Shown here one piece after another: positions 40,501-54,979 of a stretch of 64,000 nucleotides of DNA. The translations under genes were made by a program, and so were the position numbers. The notes beneath the pieces were generated by a model. The model was not told where the DNA came from and did no database searches. It saw nothing but the letters and a program-made list of their open reading frames with translations. Positions within the stretch are counted from its first letter, which is position 1, and each line of letters opens with the position of its first letter. The DNA is from Methanosarcina barkeri MS (GTDB lineage Archaea > Halobacteriota > Methanosarcinia > Methanosarcinales > Methanosarcinaceae): the NCBI RefSeq assembly GCF_000970025.1, contig NZ_CP009528.1, positions 1,041,168 through 1,105,167 of the forward strand, written 5' to 3'.

Positions 40501-41712
40501 ATGAAGTTTAATTATAATGTTAAATTATATAAAATTATTCTAATAGGATTGCTCGTTGCTGCTCTTGTAGTGACTTCAGGTTGCGCGGACAAATCCACAT
40601 CTGATACGAATCAGAACGGATCTTCTCCATCAGAAACTTCAGGAGTTTCAGACACCAATAAGGCCGTAGAATCTGGAGAGTTTACACTCACGGATGGATA
40701 TGGTAGGGAAGTTACCATACCTGAAAATGTGGAACAGGTTGTTTGCTCAGGAGCTGGATGCCTGCGCTATCTTGTATACCTGCAGGCTCAGGACGACGTA
40801 GTAGGGGTTGATAGCTTGGAAAAAGAGAAAAGCGAAGTAGAGGGCCGTCCCTATGTCCTTGCAAACCCGCAGCTTAAAGATTATCCCTTGATTGGGGAAT
40901 TCAGAGGCAATGATGATCCTGAAAAGATAATTGCCATCAGTCCCCAGGTCATCCTGAAAACCGGCACAAGTGGCCAGTCGACAGCAAGCAATGGTGCTGA
41001 TGCCGATGCGCTTCAGAATAAAACTGGCATTCCTGTTGTCATGTTCCCTTACGGCTCTTTAAAGAACGAAGAGCAGAAATCTGAAATCTATAGTTCCCTC
41101 CGTATAATGGGTCAGGTAGTAGGTAAACAGGAAAGAGCAGAGGAAGTAATCAATTATATCAATGCTACAATGCAAGACCTGGAAAACAGGACTGCCGACA
41201 TTCCGGAATCCGAAAGAAAAACTGCCTATATTGGTGGTGTGAGCATGGCTGGAGCCCATGGAATAATCTCAACGGAACCTGCTTATCCTCCATTCCTCTG
41301 GGTTAATGCAAATAATGTTGCATCCGGAATGGGTGCAGATCATGCGGATATTGCCAAAGAAGCACTTGTAGACTGGGATCCAGAGTACATATTTATTGAT
41401 ATCGGCACTCTCCAGGTTGGTAACGAAGGAGCAATTGGAGAGCTGAAGAATGATACGTCTCTCTCAGGGCTCTCGGCTGTAAAGAATAAAAAGGTCTATG
41501 GAGTGATTCCCTACAACTACTACAGCACCAACTATGAGTCTGTGCTTGCGAATGCTTATTTTGTGGGAAAAGTGCTTTATCCGGACAGGTTTGAAGACAT
41601 CGATCCGGAAGCAAAAGCTGACGAAATTTATACTTTCTTCGTTGGTAAACCCGTGTTTTCTGACCTGAACAAACAGCATGCAAACCTTGGGTTCAAACAG
41701 ATTCCACTATGA
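40501..41712 (+). CDS. ABC transporter substrate-binding lipoprotein (FepB/BtuF type), copy 1
   Basis: 403 residues. A lipoprotein signal with lipobox TSGC places the lipidated cysteine at residue 28; a Ser/Thr-rich linker follows. The binding domain begins FTLTDGYGREVTIPENVEQ and has the two-lobe PeripBP_2 layout (VVGVDSLEK, DDPEKIIAISPQVILKTG, AYIGGVSMAGAHGI, VDWDPEYIFIDIG). It would bind an iron-siderophore or corrinoid outside the membrane and deliver it to the permease at 45034. GAGGAAAG lies just before ATG 40501. Long near-identical segments shared with copy 2 show recent duplication or gene conversion. Confidence 0.9.
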   Translation: MKFNYNVKLYKIILIGLLVAALVVTSGCADKSTSDTNQNGSSPSETSGVSDTNKAVESGEFTLTDGYGREVTIPENVEQVVCSGAGCLRYLVYLQAQDDVVGVDSLEKEKSEVEGRPYVLANPQLKDYPLIGEFRGNDDPEKIIAISPQVILKTGTSGQSTASNGADADALQNKTGIPVVMFPYGSLKNEEQKSEIYSSLRIMGQVVGKQERAEEVINYINATMQDLENRTADIPESERKTAYIGGVSMAGAHGIISTEPAYPPFLWVNANNVASGMGADHADIAKEALVDWDPEYIFIDIGTLQVGNEGAIGELKNDTSLSGLSAVKNKKVYGVIPYNYYSTNYESVLANAYFVGKVLYPDRFEDIDPEAKADEIYTFFVGKPVFSDLNKQHANLGFKQIPL

Positions 41713-42152
41713 TTGAGGTATATAAAAGTTCATTTTACCAATCGGTAGTTTCGAAAGATTGCGTGAAGTAATTTTTAGTTCTGGAGTCTATTCAAAAATT
41801 ACTTCATACAGTTTTATCTATTTTTGAATTCTTTTTACCTTATTTTTGTTGTGTTTTTATTTTATTCTTCTTATTCTATTTTTCCTTTTAATTCCGATTT
41901 CACTGGATCAATTTTTCACGGAGTTAACTTCTTAAAGACATTAATTTACCAAAAAACAGATACTATCATAGTGTTTCATTTTCTATATTAAACGCAAGTC
42001 GGGTAAGGTTACACCATAAGTTTATCTTTATCTGGATTTGAAAGTTATAATAACTCATCATTTTCAAAAAATGTATTAGACCAAATATTAACTAAGAAAA
42101 TTTAGTTAATTTTATGTAATACTTTTGCTTTCTGAAACTAGAGGAAAGTAAT
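41713..42152. promoter_or_regulatory. Upstream region of binding-protein gene 2
   Basis: Follows copy 1; its second half is closely similar to 43520-43800 upstream of copy 3: CACGGAGTTAACTT, CCAAAAAACA, GGTTACACCATAA, TTTATCTTTATCTGGATTT and TCATCATTTTCAAAAAAT words recur in the same order and spacing. The start of the region (ATTGAGGTATA and AATCGGTAGTTTCGAAA) also recurs after copy 2, so the duplicated unit spans gene plus flanks. Confidence 0.6.
42088..42109. promoter_or_regulatory. Inverted repeat, candidate operator of copy 2
   Basis: TTAACTAA-GAAAAT-TTAGTTAA, with eight-base perfect arms and a six-base centre, lies 44 bases before the start codon. The promoter-like TTTATGTAATAC follows at once. 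The same arrangement precedes copies 1 and 3. Metal-dependent DtxR-family or Fur-like repressors bind palindromes of this size, but the site is not one I can assign to a known regulator. Confidence 0.5.
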
Positions 42153-43361
42153 ATGAAATTTAATAATAACAAGTTATATAAAATTATTTTTATAGGAATA
42201 CTCATAGCTGCCCTTGTAGTGACTTCGGGGTGCGCGGACAAATCCACATCTGATACGAATCAGAATGGATCATCTCCATCAGAAACTTCAGGAGTTTCAG
42301 ACGCCGATAAGGCCGCAGAATCTGGAGAGTTTACACTCACGGATGGATATGGTAGGGAAGTTACTATACCTGAAAATGTGGAACAGGTTGTTTGCTCAGG
42401 AGCTGGATGCCTGCGCTATCTTGTATACCTGCAGGCCCAGGATGATGTAGTAGGGGTTGATAGCTTAGAGAAAGAGGAAAGCGCGTTTGAAGGTCGTCCC
42501 TATGCTCTTGCAAACCCGCAGCTTAAAGACTATCCCTTGATTGGAGAATTCAGAGGCAACGATGATCCTGAAAAAATAATTGCCATCAGTCCCCAGGTCA
42601 TCCTGAAAACCGGCACAAGTGGCCAGTCGACAGCAAGCAATGGTGCTGATGCCGATGCGCTTCAGAATAAAACTGGTATTCCTGTTGTCATGTTCCCTTA
42701 CGGCTCTTTAAAGAACGAAGAGCAGAAATCTGAAATCTATAGTTCCCTCCGTATAATGGGTCAGGTAGTAGGTAAACAGGAAAGAGCAGAGGAAGTAATC
42801 AATTATATCAATGCTACAATGCAAGACCTGGAAAACAGGACTGCCGACATTCCGGAATCCGAAAGAAAAACTGCCTATATTGGTGGTGTGAGCATGGCTG
42901 GAGCCCATGGAATAATCTCAACGGAACCTGCTTATCCTCCATTCCTCTGGGTTAATGCAAATAATGTTGCATCCGGAATGGGTGCAGATCATGCGGATAT
43001 TGCCAAAGAAGCACTTGTAGACTGGGATCCAGAGTACATATTTATTGATATCGGCACTCTCCAGGTTGGTAACGAAGGAGCAATTGGAGAGCTGAAGAAT
43101 GATACGTCTCTCTCAGGGCTCTCGGCTGTAAAGAATAAAAAGGTCTATGGAGTGATTCCCTACAACTACTACAGCACCAACTATGAGTCTGTGCTTGCGA
43201 ATGCTTATTTTGTGGGAAAAGTGCTTTATCCGGACAGGTTTGAAGACATCGATCCGGAAGCAAAAGCTGACGAAATTTATACTTTCTTCGTTGGTAAACC
43301 CGTGTTCTCTGAAATTAATGAACAGTACGACAACCTTGGGTTTAAATCGATTCCACTATAA
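42153..43361 (+). CDS. ABC transporter substrate-binding lipoprotein, copy 2
   Basis: 402 residues, lipobox TSGC with the cysteine at residue 27. From about residue 40 to residue 385 the protein is almost identical to copy 1. Over roughly 42596-43300 I find only one base difference from copy 1 (GGC/GGT at 42676), while the first 40 and last 15 residues differ more. This pattern fits gene conversion or very recent duplication. Function as for copy 1. GAGGAAAG precedes ATG 42153. Confidence 0.9.
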   Translation: MKFNNNKLYKIIFIGILIAALVVTSGCADKSTSDTNQNGSSPSETSGVSDADKAAESGEFTLTDGYGREVTIPENVEQVVCSGAGCLRYLVYLQAQDDVVGVDSLEKEESAFEGRPYALANPQLKDYPLIGEFRGNDDPEKIIAISPQVILKTGTSGQSTASNGADADALQNKTGIPVVMFPYGSLKNEEQKSEIYSSLRIMGQVVGKQERAEEVINYINATMQDLENRTADIPESERKTAYIGGVSMAGAHGIISTEPAYPPFLWVNANNVASGMGADHADIAKEALVDWDPEYIFIDIGTLQVGNEGAIGELKNDTSLSGLSAVKNKKVYGVIPYNYYSTNYESVLANAYFVGKVLYPDRFEDIDPEAKADEIYTFFVGKPVFSEINEQYDNLGFKSIPL

Positions 43362-43803
43362 TTGAGGTATAAGAAAGTTAGTTTTATCAATCGGTAGTTT
43401 CGAAATATTGCGTGAAGTAATTTTTAGTTCTGGAATCTGCTAAAAAATTACTTCATACAGTTTTATATATTTCTGAATTATTTTTACCTTATTTTTGTTG
43501 TGTTTTTATCTTATTTTTTTAATTTTATTCCACTCTTTAATTCCGATTTTACTGAATTAATTTTTCACGGAGTTAACTTTTTAAAGGCATTGATCTACCA
43601 AAAAACAACCATTATCATAGTTTTTCATATTCAATAATTAAAAGCAAGTCAGTTAAGGTTACACCATAAATTTATCCTTATCTGGATTTAAAAGTCATAA
43701 TAGCTCATCATTTTCAAAAAATTAATTGGATTGAATATTAAACTAAGATAATTTAGTTAATTTTATGTAATACTTTTACTCTTTGATCATAAAGGGATGT
43801 AAC
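43362..43803. promoter_or_regulatory. Upstream region of binding-protein gene 3
   Basis: Aligned with 41713-42152 along nearly its whole length. The conserved inverted repeat is AACTAA-GATAAT-TTAGTT at 43741-43758, again followed by TTTTATGTAATAC. The level of identity between these non-coding regions is high enough to suggest that most of it is a recent duplication; function must be judged against copy 1, which is more diverged. Confidence 0.55.
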
Positions 43804-45015
43804 ATGAAATTAAATTATGGTAATAAATTATATAAAATTATTTTTATAGGACTGCTCATTGCTGCCCTGGTAGTGGCTTCAGGATGCGCGGACAAGTCCT
43901 CATCTGATAAGGATCAGAACGGATCGGCTTCAGCAGAAGCTTCAGGAGTTTCAGGCGCCGATAAGGCAATAGAATCCGGAGCGTTTACACTCACGGACGG
44001 GTTTGGCAGGGAAGTCACCATACCTGAAAATGTGGAACGAGTTGTTTGCTCAGGAGCCGGGTGCCTGCGCTACCTTGTATACCTGCAAGCTCAGGACGAT
44101 GTAGTAGGGGTTGATAGCTTGGAGAAAAAAGAAAACAAAAACGAAGGTCGCCCTTATGTATATGCGAATCCCCAGCTCAAAAACTATCCCCTTATTGGAG
44201 AGGCCAGGGGTAATGATGACCCGGAGAAAATCATTGAAGTTAACCCTCAGGTTATTCTGAAAGCCAGTATGATTGGACAGGCAGCAGCACCTACTGCCAC
44301 TGAAGCCGACACTCTTCAGGACAAAACCGGCATCCCTGTGGTCGCATTCCCTTACGGGTCTTTGAATAATGAGACACAGAAAGCCGAAGTGTACAGCTCT
44401 CTGAGGATAATGGGCGAGGCAGTAGGTAAACAGGAAAGAGCAGAGGAAGTAATCAGTTATATCAATGCTACTATGCAGGATCTTGAAAACAGGACTGCCG
44501 ACATTCCGGAATCTGAAAGAAAAACGGCCTATATTGGTGGGGTCGGTATGGCTGGAGCTCATGGAATAATCGCTACAGAACCTGCTTACTCGCCATTCCT
44601 CTGGGTGAATGCAAAGAATGTCGCAGCCGGAATGGGCACAGAGCATGCGGATATTGCTAAGGAGGCACTCGTAGACTGGGATCCCGAGTATATATTTATC
44701 GATGTTGGTACCCTCCAGCTTGGTAACGAAGGTGCAATTGGAGAACTGAAGAATGATACATCCCTTGCAGGACTCTCGGCTGTGAAAAATAAAAAAGTCT
44801 ATGGAGTAATCCCTTATAACTTCTACAGCACCAACTATGAGTCCGTACTTGCAGACGCTTATTTTATCGGAAAAGTGCTCTATCCGGACAGATTTGAAGA
44901 TATTGATCCGGAAGCAAAAGCTGACGAAATATACACTTTCTTCGTTGGTAAACCTGTATTTTCAGATCTGAATGGAAATTACAGTAATATGTGCTTTAAA
45001 CAAATTTTGCAATAA
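43804..45015 (+). CDS. ABC transporter substrate-binding lipoprotein, copy 3
   Basis: About 403 residues, lipobox ASGC with the cysteine at residue 28. It keeps the same domain layout as copies 1 and 2 (FTLTDGFGREVTIPENVER, GVDSLEKKE, VNPQVILKAS, AYIGGVGMAGAHGI, VDWDPEYIFIDVG) but is more diverged, so it may bind a different ligand. ATG 43804 is preferred to the upstream ATG at 43783 because it aligns with copies 1 and 2 and has AAAGGGATG just upstream. The permease gene follows after 18 bases, so this copy is the one most tightly linked to the transporter. Confidence 0.9.
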   Translation: MKLNYGNKLYKIIFIGLLIAALVVASGCADKSSSDKDQNGSASAEASGVSGADKAIESGAFTLTDGFGREVTIPENVERVVCSGAGCLRYLVYLQAQDDVVGVDSLEKKENKNEGRPYVYANPQLKNYPLIGEARGNDDPEKIIEVNPQVILKASMIGQAAAPTATEADTLQDKTGIPVVAFPYGSLNNETQKAEVYSSLRIMGEAVGKQERAEEVISYINATMQDLENRTADIPESERKTAYIGGVGMAGAHGIIATEPAYSPFLWVNAKNVAAGMGTEHADIAKEALVDWDPEYIFIDVGTLQLGNEGAIGELKNDTSLAGLSAVKNKKVYGVIPYNFYSTNYESVLADAYFIGKVLYPDRFEDIDPEAKADEIYTFFVGKPVFSDLNGNYSNMCFKQILQ

Positions 45016-47230: not shown

Positions 47231-47959
47231 TCAAGATTTGGTTGCAGCCATTATGGCGAGGTTGCGGGATTTCCATAAGCAATCAACATGTCTAAATCCT
47301 GCTGCCTTCATGTCTTGAAACGTCTCCAAAAGCGTTCCAGGTTTATCTCCCATTTTCTGGGAGTTTTCCAGTCGATTAAGCTTCAGTTCCTCAAAGGTCC
47401 ATTCCTGTCCGAGCTTCTCCTTAAGTTGTATCATCAGAGAGGAGATTTTGTTATTAAACTCCCATTGATCAATAGCTGGAGAGTCTTCCCTGAAAAGATC
47501 TCCGTTTATAAATAAACCCTGCTCTTTTAGAAGTTCGCGAATATCGGAATACAGTTTGCTTCTGTTTTCAAACTCTACATGATGAATAGAAAAACAGGAT
47601 ACAACAGCATCAAATCCTCTATCTCCAGTTATATCCAGGAGTCCTTGATTCAGATCACGTTTGACTACATTTATGTTTTTATTATCCCTGAACCTTTCGC
47701 TGCTTCGCCTTATCATCTCATCAGAGAAGTCGATCATGAGAACATCTGCTTGAGGCTTTAACTTCAAGATCTCAGCTGTCACATCGCCCAGACCACAGCC
47801 CAGGTCAATTATCTTAGGATCCATTGGCCCTAATTCGATTGCTACCCTTGAAATAATTGACAATATTTCTTTCCTTTCAGGTATGATTATATCAGCTGTC
47901 TGGGCATATTTTTCAGCAGCTTCTGGATGAGTCCATCCTTTTTTTTTCTCTTTTTCCAT
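47231..47959 (-). CDS. Class I SAM-dependent methyltransferase
   Basis: About 242 residues. KIIDLGCGLGDVTAEILKL near residue 48 is the SAM-binding motif I, VLMIDFSDEMIRRSSERF the acidic-loop motif, and FDAVVSCFSIHHVE motif IV. It resembles small-molecule methyltransferases of the Methyltransf_25 type; the substrate is not visible. ATG 47957-47959 has AAGGAGAT 12 bases upstream; an in-frame TTG at 47968 is too close to it. A lysine-rich N-terminus (EKEKKKG) precedes the domain. Confidence 0.85.
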   Translation of the reverse strand: MEKEKKKGWTHPEAAEKYAQTADIIIPERKEILSIISRVAIELGPMDPKIIDLGCGLGDVTAEILKLKPQADVLMIDFSDEMIRRSSERFRDNKNINVVKRDLNQGLLDITGDRGFDAVVSCFSIHHVEFENRSKLYSDIRELLKEQGLFINGDLFREDSPAIDQWEFNNKISSLMIQLKEKLGQEWTFEELKLNRLENSQKMGDKPGTLLETFQDMKAAGFRHVDCLWKSRNLAIMAATKS

Positions 47960-48640
47960 AGCCAGCAATATCTCCTTAATTAGTTATAAAGTCCAGCTAT
48001 AACATTATTGAGCTAATCTCAAAACTCAAAATACTTTTCTATAAAATTATTTTTGGATAAGCTCAATGTTAAACTTAAGGAACAATAGAAATATAGTAAC
48101 TATTCAGCGTAGGAAAAACAACCTCAATAGGCATCTTCTTAAATCTAAAATGGGCAAAATCCTATTGATTAATTTTTCACAACTGTTGTTACTGCTCGTG
48201 CTTTTTAGTTTTATACAGTTGATAATTCTATGCTTATGAAACCTTAAAATCAATATCAGTAAGCCTAATTTTCGTACGCTGAATAGATACGAAATATAAT
48301 ACCAAGTGTTTTTGTTGACAAGGATGATATTTGGGGAAGTGGAACGATAGATCACTTCCCAAACTAAAAATTAGAAGTTATATTTGTATCATTCCTAAAT
48401 GCGTACAGGCAATGATTTTGAGATCCCAGTTTTTGATTTCCCAGTATCCTCTTCAAATTCAGTGGAGAATTTTCCAATTTGAAAACTATACAATAATTTT
48501 ATTATACAGTTGTAAAGTTGGATGCATCGCTTGAAGTTGTTGTTTATACTTTGGTAAATTTTTAAATTTTCATTAAATACATGAAATTTACTTTTACCCA
48601 TACAATTTGAAGAGGATACCAGAAAAAGATTTCCAGGTTT
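47960..48640. other. AT-rich intergenic region containing a MITE
   Basis: Holds the IS66-type MITE at 48096-48290 and two oppositely oriented copies of the word AATTTGAAGAGGATAC (48444-48460 and 48604-48619). Short frames in it show no protein-like pattern. Confidence 0.55.
48088..48298. mobile_element. MITE with IS66-type ends, 195 bp plus 8-bp target duplication
   Basis: The element 48096-48290 begins GTAACTATTCAGCGTAGGAA and ends with the complement of GTATCTATTCAGCGTACGAA, so the two ends match at 18 of 20 bases. It is flanked by GAAATATA (48088-48095 and 48291-48298), an exact 8-bp duplication as made by IS66 elements. The ends share GTAACTATTCAGC with the complete IS66 at 53370-54971. 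It has no gene. Confidence 0.85.
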
Positions 48641-49496
<856 letters not shown>

Positions 49497-53361: not shown

Positions 53362-53369
53362 ATTAATAT
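53362..53369. repeat. IS66 target duplication, left copy (ATTAATAT)
   Basis: Identical to 54972-54979, directly outside the IS66 ends. Confidence 0.9.
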
Positions 53370-54971
53370 GTAACTATTCAGCCACTTATAAAAAAGTATG
53401 TTTTGGAGCAAAATGCTTCAATTCTCAGGCTAATAACGGCGCTCCCTTGAGCGCCGTTAGAATAGCATCCATAACATTCATTTCATTCTTTTTAATTGAT
53501 GATATGTATGCCCTAATTCTGCAGAAAGCTACCGCTCCTTCTATACTTCGGAAAGTTCCCGAAATTTTCTGTTGTAGCTTCATCATTCTGATATCCCGCT
53601 CTGCTTGATTGTTATCAAACGCAACTCTCAGGTTATTAAGAAATTTCTTAATCTGTTCCTTGTGTACTATGAACCTATCAAGGAGATTCTTTGCTTTTGT
53701 TTGTGCTGTTCTTCCTCTCTTTTTGACCTGATCCTTTGAAGGATCAGGTGGTGGATTTTCTATAATTCCTTCTTGTATTATTGCGTCGTATATTTGCTCA
53801 AATTCTCGGACTTTTTCAGGATCTATTGGAATTTCCATCTCTCTACATTCATCAGTATACTTCTTCATCTCACTGAGAAGTTCATTTATCTTTTTAGCCC
53901 ATTGCTGCTCAAAACTCTCTTCAATCCCAGTAAGTTCCCGCTTAAGATGAGCATTGCACAGGGCATGTTCACATCCATACTTGTTGTATGAAGAATATCC
54001 ATCATGAACTGCTACTCCCTTGTATTGCGGAAGAAATCCCAGAGCATCCATTGCTTCTGTCCCTCTTTTAGGATGAGGAAAATAATATGTCCACAAATTG
54101 TTTGAGACAACATGAAGCCACCATTTAGTCCCCAAAACTCTCATTCCTGTCTCATCACAATGGGCAGAATGGGAAGTTAATAGATGTTCCATAGCAGCTT
54201 TTTCGAAAGGTTCCAGGTTCTGGAAACATTCTTTTTCCGCTCTTCTTATGGTAGCTGGGCTGATACGTATACCGTAGAAGTCCTCTACTAAATCACAAGT
54301 CCTTTCATATGGAAGCAATTGATAGTTCCTCAAATACAGCATCGAGGCTAAAAGACGAGGCCCATATTGAATCGGGAATTTTATAGACTCTGGAAAAGAA
54401 CCTTTGTTAACTTTCCCGCAGTGAGGACACTTCTTGATTTCACAACGATGTTCAGTATATATGATTTGCACAGGAGGAATTTCAATTTCTTGTCTGCGTT
54501 CATAATCCTGAACTTCAGTATTTTCAAGATGATGACCACAATTTTCGCAGCAGTCAGGAGAATGGCATATGATCTAATCAGGATTTTCAACCATTTCAAG
54601 AGTCTTTCCAGGATGACCTTTTTGGCCACCAACTTTTTTGCCGCTACTCTTGCGGAGACCCTTAGGTTTAGGTTTTTCGTTACAAAAAACATCAGTAGAA
54701 GGAGGTTTACTGCTATTTTGGCTGTTTTGATTCAAACGAGACTCTAAAACCCTTACACGTTCTTCAAGTTCAGCAATCCGAGAATCTTGTTTCTCTATGA
54801 TAGACTCAAGTCTCTGGATGACAGAAATAACTGCTTCAGGACCAGCTTCATAAATTTCAAGGATCTCTTCACGTGTAAGCATGATATTGAAAAAAGAAGG
54901 TTATTTTATATGCAATTTTTCCTCTTTCCGAGGAAAAATTGCTTTTACCAAAGCTATGGCTGAATAGTTAC
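53370..54971 (-). mobile_element. Complete IS66-family insertion sequence, 1602 bp
   Basis: The ends GTAACTATTCAGCCA (53370-53384) and its complement (54957-54971) are perfect 15-base inverted repeats, flanked by an exact 8-bp duplication ATTAATAT. Length, ends and duplication fit IS66. Only the tnpC-type transposase is present, without the accessory TnpA/TnpB genes of longer IS66 elements, as in the short (ISBst12-like) subgroup. The gene is interrupted by a single in-frame TAG. Confidence 0.95.
53425..54882 (-). CDS. IS66 transposase with in-frame TAG (possible pyrrolysine)
   Basis: From ATG 54882 to TGA 53425 the frame has 485 codons and only one internal stop, TAG at 54574-54576. Before it lie a coiled coil (RIAELEERVRVLESRLNQNS) and SSKPPSTDV with GGQKGHPGKTLE, the usual IS66 N-terminus; after it the zinc-finger CCENCGHHLE with CPHCG, the catalytic HCDETGM and AVHDGYSSYN aspartates, and NNQAERDIRMMK with the glutamate. 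The sequence after TAG continues without loss of homology-like features. In Methanosarcina UAG can be decoded as pyrrolysine, so readthrough may give the full enzyme; otherwise the gene is broken by one mutation. Confidence 0.85.
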
Positions 54972-54979
54972 ATTAATAT
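54972..54979. repeat. IS66 target duplication, right copy (ATTAATAT)
   Basis: Exact copy of 53362-53369. Confidence 0.9.

Follow-up and report, generated by a model that had tools for sequence, protein, structure and literature searches.

Miniature inverted-repeat transposable elements (MITEs) with which the element described here can be compared have been reported from bacteria. MITECca01 of Cardinium, known from one bacterial strain, is an IS982-derived element of about 240 bp (PMC9769881), and Pseudomonas syringae carries MITEPsy1 (100 bp) and MITEPsy2 (228 bp), the former of which was trapped moving in vivo (PMC3189936). With regard to transposases of methanogenic archaea, one family of M. 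acetivorans and M. mazei is described as carrying a conserved amber codon, which is absent in M. burtonii (PMC2933860; PMC3639795); PMC2933860 raises the question of whether amber-bearing transposase genes are functional. Searches of the openly accessible literature returned no account of a Methanosarcina MITE with IS66 ends.

The window, i.e., the whole stretch of 64,000 nucleotides of Methanosarcina barkeri MS that was analysed, contains at 48096–48290 (forward strand) a 195-bp element that matches the family model R1 over its full length and is a confirmed MITE: it is short, bounded by inverted repeats, devoid of a transposase gene, present in several copies per genome and flanked by duplications that are specific to each copy. 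Its target duplication, GAAATATA, is perfect over 8 bp (48088–48095 on the left and 48291–48298 on the right), as originally predicted, and its terminal inverted repeats (48096–48117, forward; 48269–48290, reverse) agree at 20 of the outermost 22 bases and are 85% complementary over 27-nt arms. The element lies, as had been stated, between a SAM methyltransferase-domain gene (47231–47968) and the gene for ribosomal protein S15 (rps15, 48641–49099), and the claim that it holds no gene is borne out by the presence of nothing other than small overlapping ORFs (57, 83, and 42 aa, all unsupported) and by a family without codon periodicity. Short repeats are common in an AT-rich region such as this one, and an inverted repeat with fortuitously identical flanks might be suspected; yet a scan of the window for exact 8-bp duplications next to inverted ends of at least 18/22 matches, 100–400 bp in length, returned this element only, the best inverted-end score in 10 simulated first-order Markov sequences was 15/22, and homologous copies elsewhere carry duplications of their own. 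A chance origin is thus vanishingly improbable.

The MITE interrupts a dispersed repeat of about 125 bp with inverted ends of the TTAAGGAATGAT..AAATATAA type (48075–48399, forward strand), of which the window retains the parts 48075–48095 and 48299–48399 and of which many copies occur in other Methanosarcina genomes. Uninterrupted copies in those genomes carry a single copy of the target, CAAATATA, at the corresponding position, whereas in the window GAAATATA stands on both sides of the MITE; this comparison constitutes direct evidence of insertion with an 8-bp duplication. An orthologous empty site was not found among the 26 other Methanosarcina loci in which rps15 aligns, where nothing upstream of 48618 is syntenic because the spacer is made of dispersed repeats, and the host-repeat copies therefore served as natural empty sites. 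The same spacer holds a third dispersed repeat of about 176 bp (48444–48619) with perfect 16-bp inverted ends, GTATCCTCTTCAAATT, and more than 10 further copies in the genome. Elsewhere in the window, at 40501–45015, three closely similar genes in tandem, presumably for a lipoprotein-like ABC-type metal/siderophore binding protein, are located upstream of permease and ATPase genes.

Contrary to the alternative that no further copies exist, relatives with many different 8-bp duplications were found both in the same genome and across the family. Of 30 Methanosarcina genomes, 21 yielded relatives to a DNA query and 28 to a sequence-only model derived from 29 copies; across the order, the model found matches in at least 52 of 185 genomes and at least 11 of 27 genera, those outside the Methanosarcinaceae being weak. 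The underlying alignment (A1) was reduced to 29 copies from 34 by excluding L002 and L005 for their insertions, L004 and L061 as near-duplicates and L035 as a spurious pair. The best other copy in the M. barkeri genome is 86% identical, has a different duplication with one mismatch and reaches 215 bp because of an AATT-rich insert. That genome contains 30 model matches, many of them degraded, and a perfect duplication flanks 3 of the 11 best-scoring copies; the window copy is therefore among the few intact ones and does not belong to a recent burst in this genome. A Methanolobus-like genome, G162, holds 106 model matches together with 36 IS66 transposase hits. An element of G148, a genome of the same genus, is identical in sequence to one on a contig of Methanolobus psychrotolerans, which suggests that the genus of G148 and G162 is Methanolobus; on the same ground, genus g1 would be Methanosarcina.

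The 118 loci examined correspond to 109 distinct insertions, loci with identical flanks having been merged and three partial or contig-edge loci (L418, L423, and L434) omitted. Both ends were resolved in 94 insertions; the other 15 of the 109 were set aside because a partial hit or a degraded end kept their boundaries from being fixed. Element length falls within 193–198 bp in 88 of the 94 (the rest measure 191, twice, 207, 213, and 215, twice), and the 8-bp duplications are perfect in 53, carry one mismatch in 14 and two or more mismatches in 27. Nearly all perfect duplications (51 of 53) are different, and their A+T content is 81%. The lineage is family-wide and nearly constant in size with a conserved interior, its sequence drifting while its length stays.

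The candidate mobiliser is an IS66-family insertion sequence of 1602 bp on the reverse strand of the window (53370–54971). Its transposase matches PF03050 (DDE_Tnp_IS66; 221.7 bits) and NF033517 (314.1 bits), and its 1602 bp contain one split transposase frame only, without the tnpA and tnpB accessory genes that characterise classical IS66. Single-transposase members of the IS66 family are known, and we take the type in the window to be ISBst12-like. The description of this element as complete holds with respect to its own perfect 8-bp duplication, ATTAATAT (53362–53369 and 54972–54979), but is qualified by an in-frame TAG in the transposase. All four IS66 copies of 1602–1603 bp in the same genome carry distinct perfect 8-bp duplications and differ by no more than 2 bases and one gap, a near-identity that indicates recent movement. 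The predicted agreement between the ends of the MITE and those of IS66 is exact on the left, where the outer bases GTAACTATTCAGC match both IS66 ends at 13 of 13 positions, and is one base short on the right, where GTATCTATTCAGC matches at 12 of 13 and differs at base 4. IS66 elements of other species have the first 11–12 bases in common (GTAACTATTCAG-type ends), up to one or two changes, and show perfect 8-bp duplications wherever both ends were found. In G162 the ends of the 1622-bp IS66, GTAACTATTCAGCCTA and GTAACTATTCAGCCTG, match the MITE ends over 15–16 bases, and 24 of 29 end pairs of 1622–1623 bp have perfect duplications.

Small elements with the same ends extend beyond the archaeal family. 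A scan of reference genomes for exact 13-bp ends 157–187 bases apart, which admits lengths of 183–213 bp only and from which a size class can therefore not be inferred, returned at least 118 stretches. Bacteria (Desulfoluna, Methylobacter, Saprospiraceae, Bacteroidales, and others) account for many of the 80 stretches that were used, and perfect 8-bp duplications are frequent among them; a scan of viral contigs returned one stretch. The model of the archaeal interior matches archaeal elements strongly and the bacterial-titled L334 (Methylobacter; E 9e-5) weakly. It also matches a second bacterial-titled stretch, L323, which together with its flanks equals one of the copies in the M. barkeri genome and may be a binning error; L337 is matched at E 0.013. 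With spacing left free, one Desulfoluna genome yielded 23 pairs of 191–245 bp, exact ends only being paired. The 13-bp end sequence is present in more than 100 copies per Desulfoluna genome (L275, L278, L297, and other loci), and the small elements of Desulfoluna carry CCTCCGGCGG-type stretches. A second group with the same ends, 195–196 bp in length (L279, L283, L290, L291, L342, and L346), comes from metagenome-assembled genomes of ANME-3, Methanosarcinales and Methanococcoides and matches the archaeal model weakly.

These comparisons bear on whether the MITE is an internal-deletion derivative of IS66 itself, an origin for which the identical ends and the identical length of the duplication can be cited. 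A deletion of this kind appears improbable, given that the 195-bp query matched no IS66 copy of its own genome at E ≤ 1, that IS66 and MITE ends diverge after 12–16 bp in many species and that the interiors of similarly sized bacterial elements with these ends are mostly unrelated. Since only the outer 12–16 bp are in common, a simple deletion from IS66 does not account for the MITE. The term IS66-derived in the original prediction accordingly stands as regards the type of the ends and the 8-bp duplication and fails for the interior, which has no IS66 match; the wording supported by the sequences would be IS66-mobilised.

Taken as a whole, the data are best explained if the window element is a MITE mobilised by an IS66-family transposase, a reading to which we assign a probability of roughly 0.88. 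An IS66-family enzyme of the single-transposase type would recognise the GTAACTATTCAGC ends of the MITE, would excise or copy it and would insert it at an AT-rich target through an 8-bp staggered cut; the window copy would have landed in this manner inside the short dispersed repeat between rps15 and the methyltransferase gene. The conserved interior sites and the constant length would, on this explanation, serve transposition. The exact sequence GTANCTATTCAGC occurs 19 times in the M. barkeri genome, of which 18 occurrences belong to IS66 (8 ends) or to model-matched MITE copies (10) and the last is MITE-like by eye. The best evidence available here comes from G162, in which five neighbouring pairs of elements are separated by exactly 7 bp (MITE beside MITE in two, IS66 beside a resident MITE in two and MITE beside a resident IS66 in one), compared with fewer than 0.01 expected by chance according to an arithmetic estimate for about 142 elements in 3.05 Mb. 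In all five pairs the newcomer has a duplication made up of the last base of the resident and the 7 bases next to it, and once the newcomer is excised the duplications of both elements are perfect; a further three close pairs (gaps 8, 12, and 18 bp) fall outside this rule. An insertion rule common to both kinds of element points to one machinery moving IS66 and MITE.

Several observations count against the IS66 link. The numbers of the two elements are not correlated from genome to genome: G008 lacks the MITE despite 26 IS66 hits, G018 combines 52 MITE matches with a single weak IS66 hit, and several genomes that carry the MITE gave no IS66 hit at all, as they might if the mobiliser were a transposase of another family that acts on the same ends. 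Such an enzyme is rather improbable in view of the near-exclusive assignment of the exact ends to IS66 and MITE copies in the M. barkeri genome and of the insertion rule that the two have in common in G162. Also counted against IS66 mobilisation are the agreement with the resident IS66 ends over only about 13–14 bp in Methanosarcina, the proportion of duplications with at least two mismatches (27/94) and the TAG present in all five large IS66 genes of the genome. A composite in G162 (L198, 1325–3111, a place also represented by L201) that consists of a full IS66 joined to positions 57–194 of the MITE, between the two copies of one perfect 8-bp duplication, CTTAGTTC, was considered as a demonstration of pairing between IS66 and MITE ends and was dropped, an equally possible route being a deletion between direct repeats: IS66 would have inserted into a MITE, and the part between the direct 15-bp end repeats would then have been lost.

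The in-frame TAG of the window transposase (54574–54576, reverse strand) probably encodes pyrrolysine. At the aligned position, TAG is found in 26 of 77 rows, GAA in 49 and TAT and TGA in one each, a count limited to copies aligned across the position, in which several loci repeat one copy and many GAA rows come from G162. All TAG rows originate from Methanosarcina or a neighbouring genus (g5), in which nearly every aligned copy has this codon, the copies of other origin having mostly GAA; GAA also stands in one Methanosarcina copy (L097). Each of the five large IS66 genes in the M. barkeri genome contains an in-frame UAG, and mobilisation in this strain would therefore need read-through, so that movement of the MITE itself may depend on it. 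The transposase family treated in PMC2933860 resembles the candidate mobiliser in being of the type found in a Bacillus insertion element, in its conserved TAG and in the absence of this codon from M. burtonii, and it is probably the same family; the passage in question discusses neither a MITE nor end sequences. To the known conserved amber codon the present analysis adds that a transposase of this kind is likely the mobiliser of a family-wide MITE, whose movement would offer a simple reporter for the function of UAG-bearing transposase genes.

Within the MITE, mean majority identity is 0.77 (50 non-redundant copies of 185–200 bp), and conserved interior positions are clustered at about 21–40, 91–110, and 151–168 of the alignment (permutation p 0.0025). 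These blocks hold ATCAATAG, its inverse and ATCAATAG again. The window copy has a left ATCAATAG-type site in the form CTCAATAG (48123–48130, forward), a central inverted CTATTGAT-type site decayed to TTACTGCT (48189–48196, reverse) and a partly decayed right site of the ATCAATAT/ATCAATAG type (48249–48262, forward). With one mismatch allowed, all three sites are kept in 42 of 106 copies and two in 46, and shuffled interiors essentially never retain two or more; this contrast is a measure of conservation, not of function, because the copies are related by descent, and a fairer comparison is given by the permutation test.

Coding and RNA readings of the interior were both considered. On the minus strand, the right end of many copies resembles, by eye, an acidic tail followed by a stop (IDIDFD..stop). 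This peptide reading was rejected because copies of 196 and 197 bp place the frame differently with respect to the end and, in a test of low power, because there was no clear three-base periodicity (substitutions by phase 0.365, 0.349, and 0.383). That the element might be a conserved regulatory or other functional RNA gene, incidentally repeated, could be argued from the clustering of conserved positions and from the folding of single copies, which is better than that of shuffles (the window copy reaches z -3.9 when folded as DNA, and L049 z -6.5 and -4.3 when folded as RNA). RNAalifold applied to 29 copies, on the other hand, retained 7 terminal pairs only, none with a compensatory change, so that a conserved covarying secondary structure was not found. 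Neither the window region nor the elements at seven loci gave an Rfam match, and the different target duplications indicate that the copies moved, all of which renders an RNA gene very improbable.

For the MITE as a mobilised element, a further and tentative reading, unlikely as it stands though worth stating, is that it has been kept as a long-lived satellite of IS66 and is no passive product of deletion. The length of about 195 bp and the three ATCAATAG-type sites would be under selection because ends so close to each other could otherwise not be joined in the transposition complex, and mobility in Methanosarcina would be gated by pyrrolysine, because every large IS66 transposase gene found here contains an in-frame UAG. 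Under such selection, the small IS66-ended elements of bacteria, similar in size and unrelated in their interiors, would reflect the same physical limit.

The MITE lineage can be traced across genera of one archaeal family, and its many intact duplications allow rules of transposition to be read from genomes; the insertion rule (7 bp together with the last base of the resident) and the conservation of size and interior provide handles on IS66-type transposition. Among known systems, the single-transposase, presumably ISBst12-like IS66 elements of Methanosarcina are comparable in that they share with the MITE the GTAACTATTCAG start, the 8-bp duplication and AT-rich targets; they differ from it in possessing a transposase and have nothing in common with it inside the outer 12–16 bp. 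MITEPsy1 and MITEPsy2 are likewise non-autonomous but differ in their ends, which are IS5-like with a 4-bp duplication in the former and similar to those of the Tn3 family in the latter (PMC3189936). MITECca01 is also short and gene-less, carries the ends of a resident insertion sequence and was apparently moved in trans, whereas it belongs with another IS family and retains conserved parental sequence just inside its left end (PMC9769881); the MITE of the window, in contrast to that element of a single strain, spans genera.
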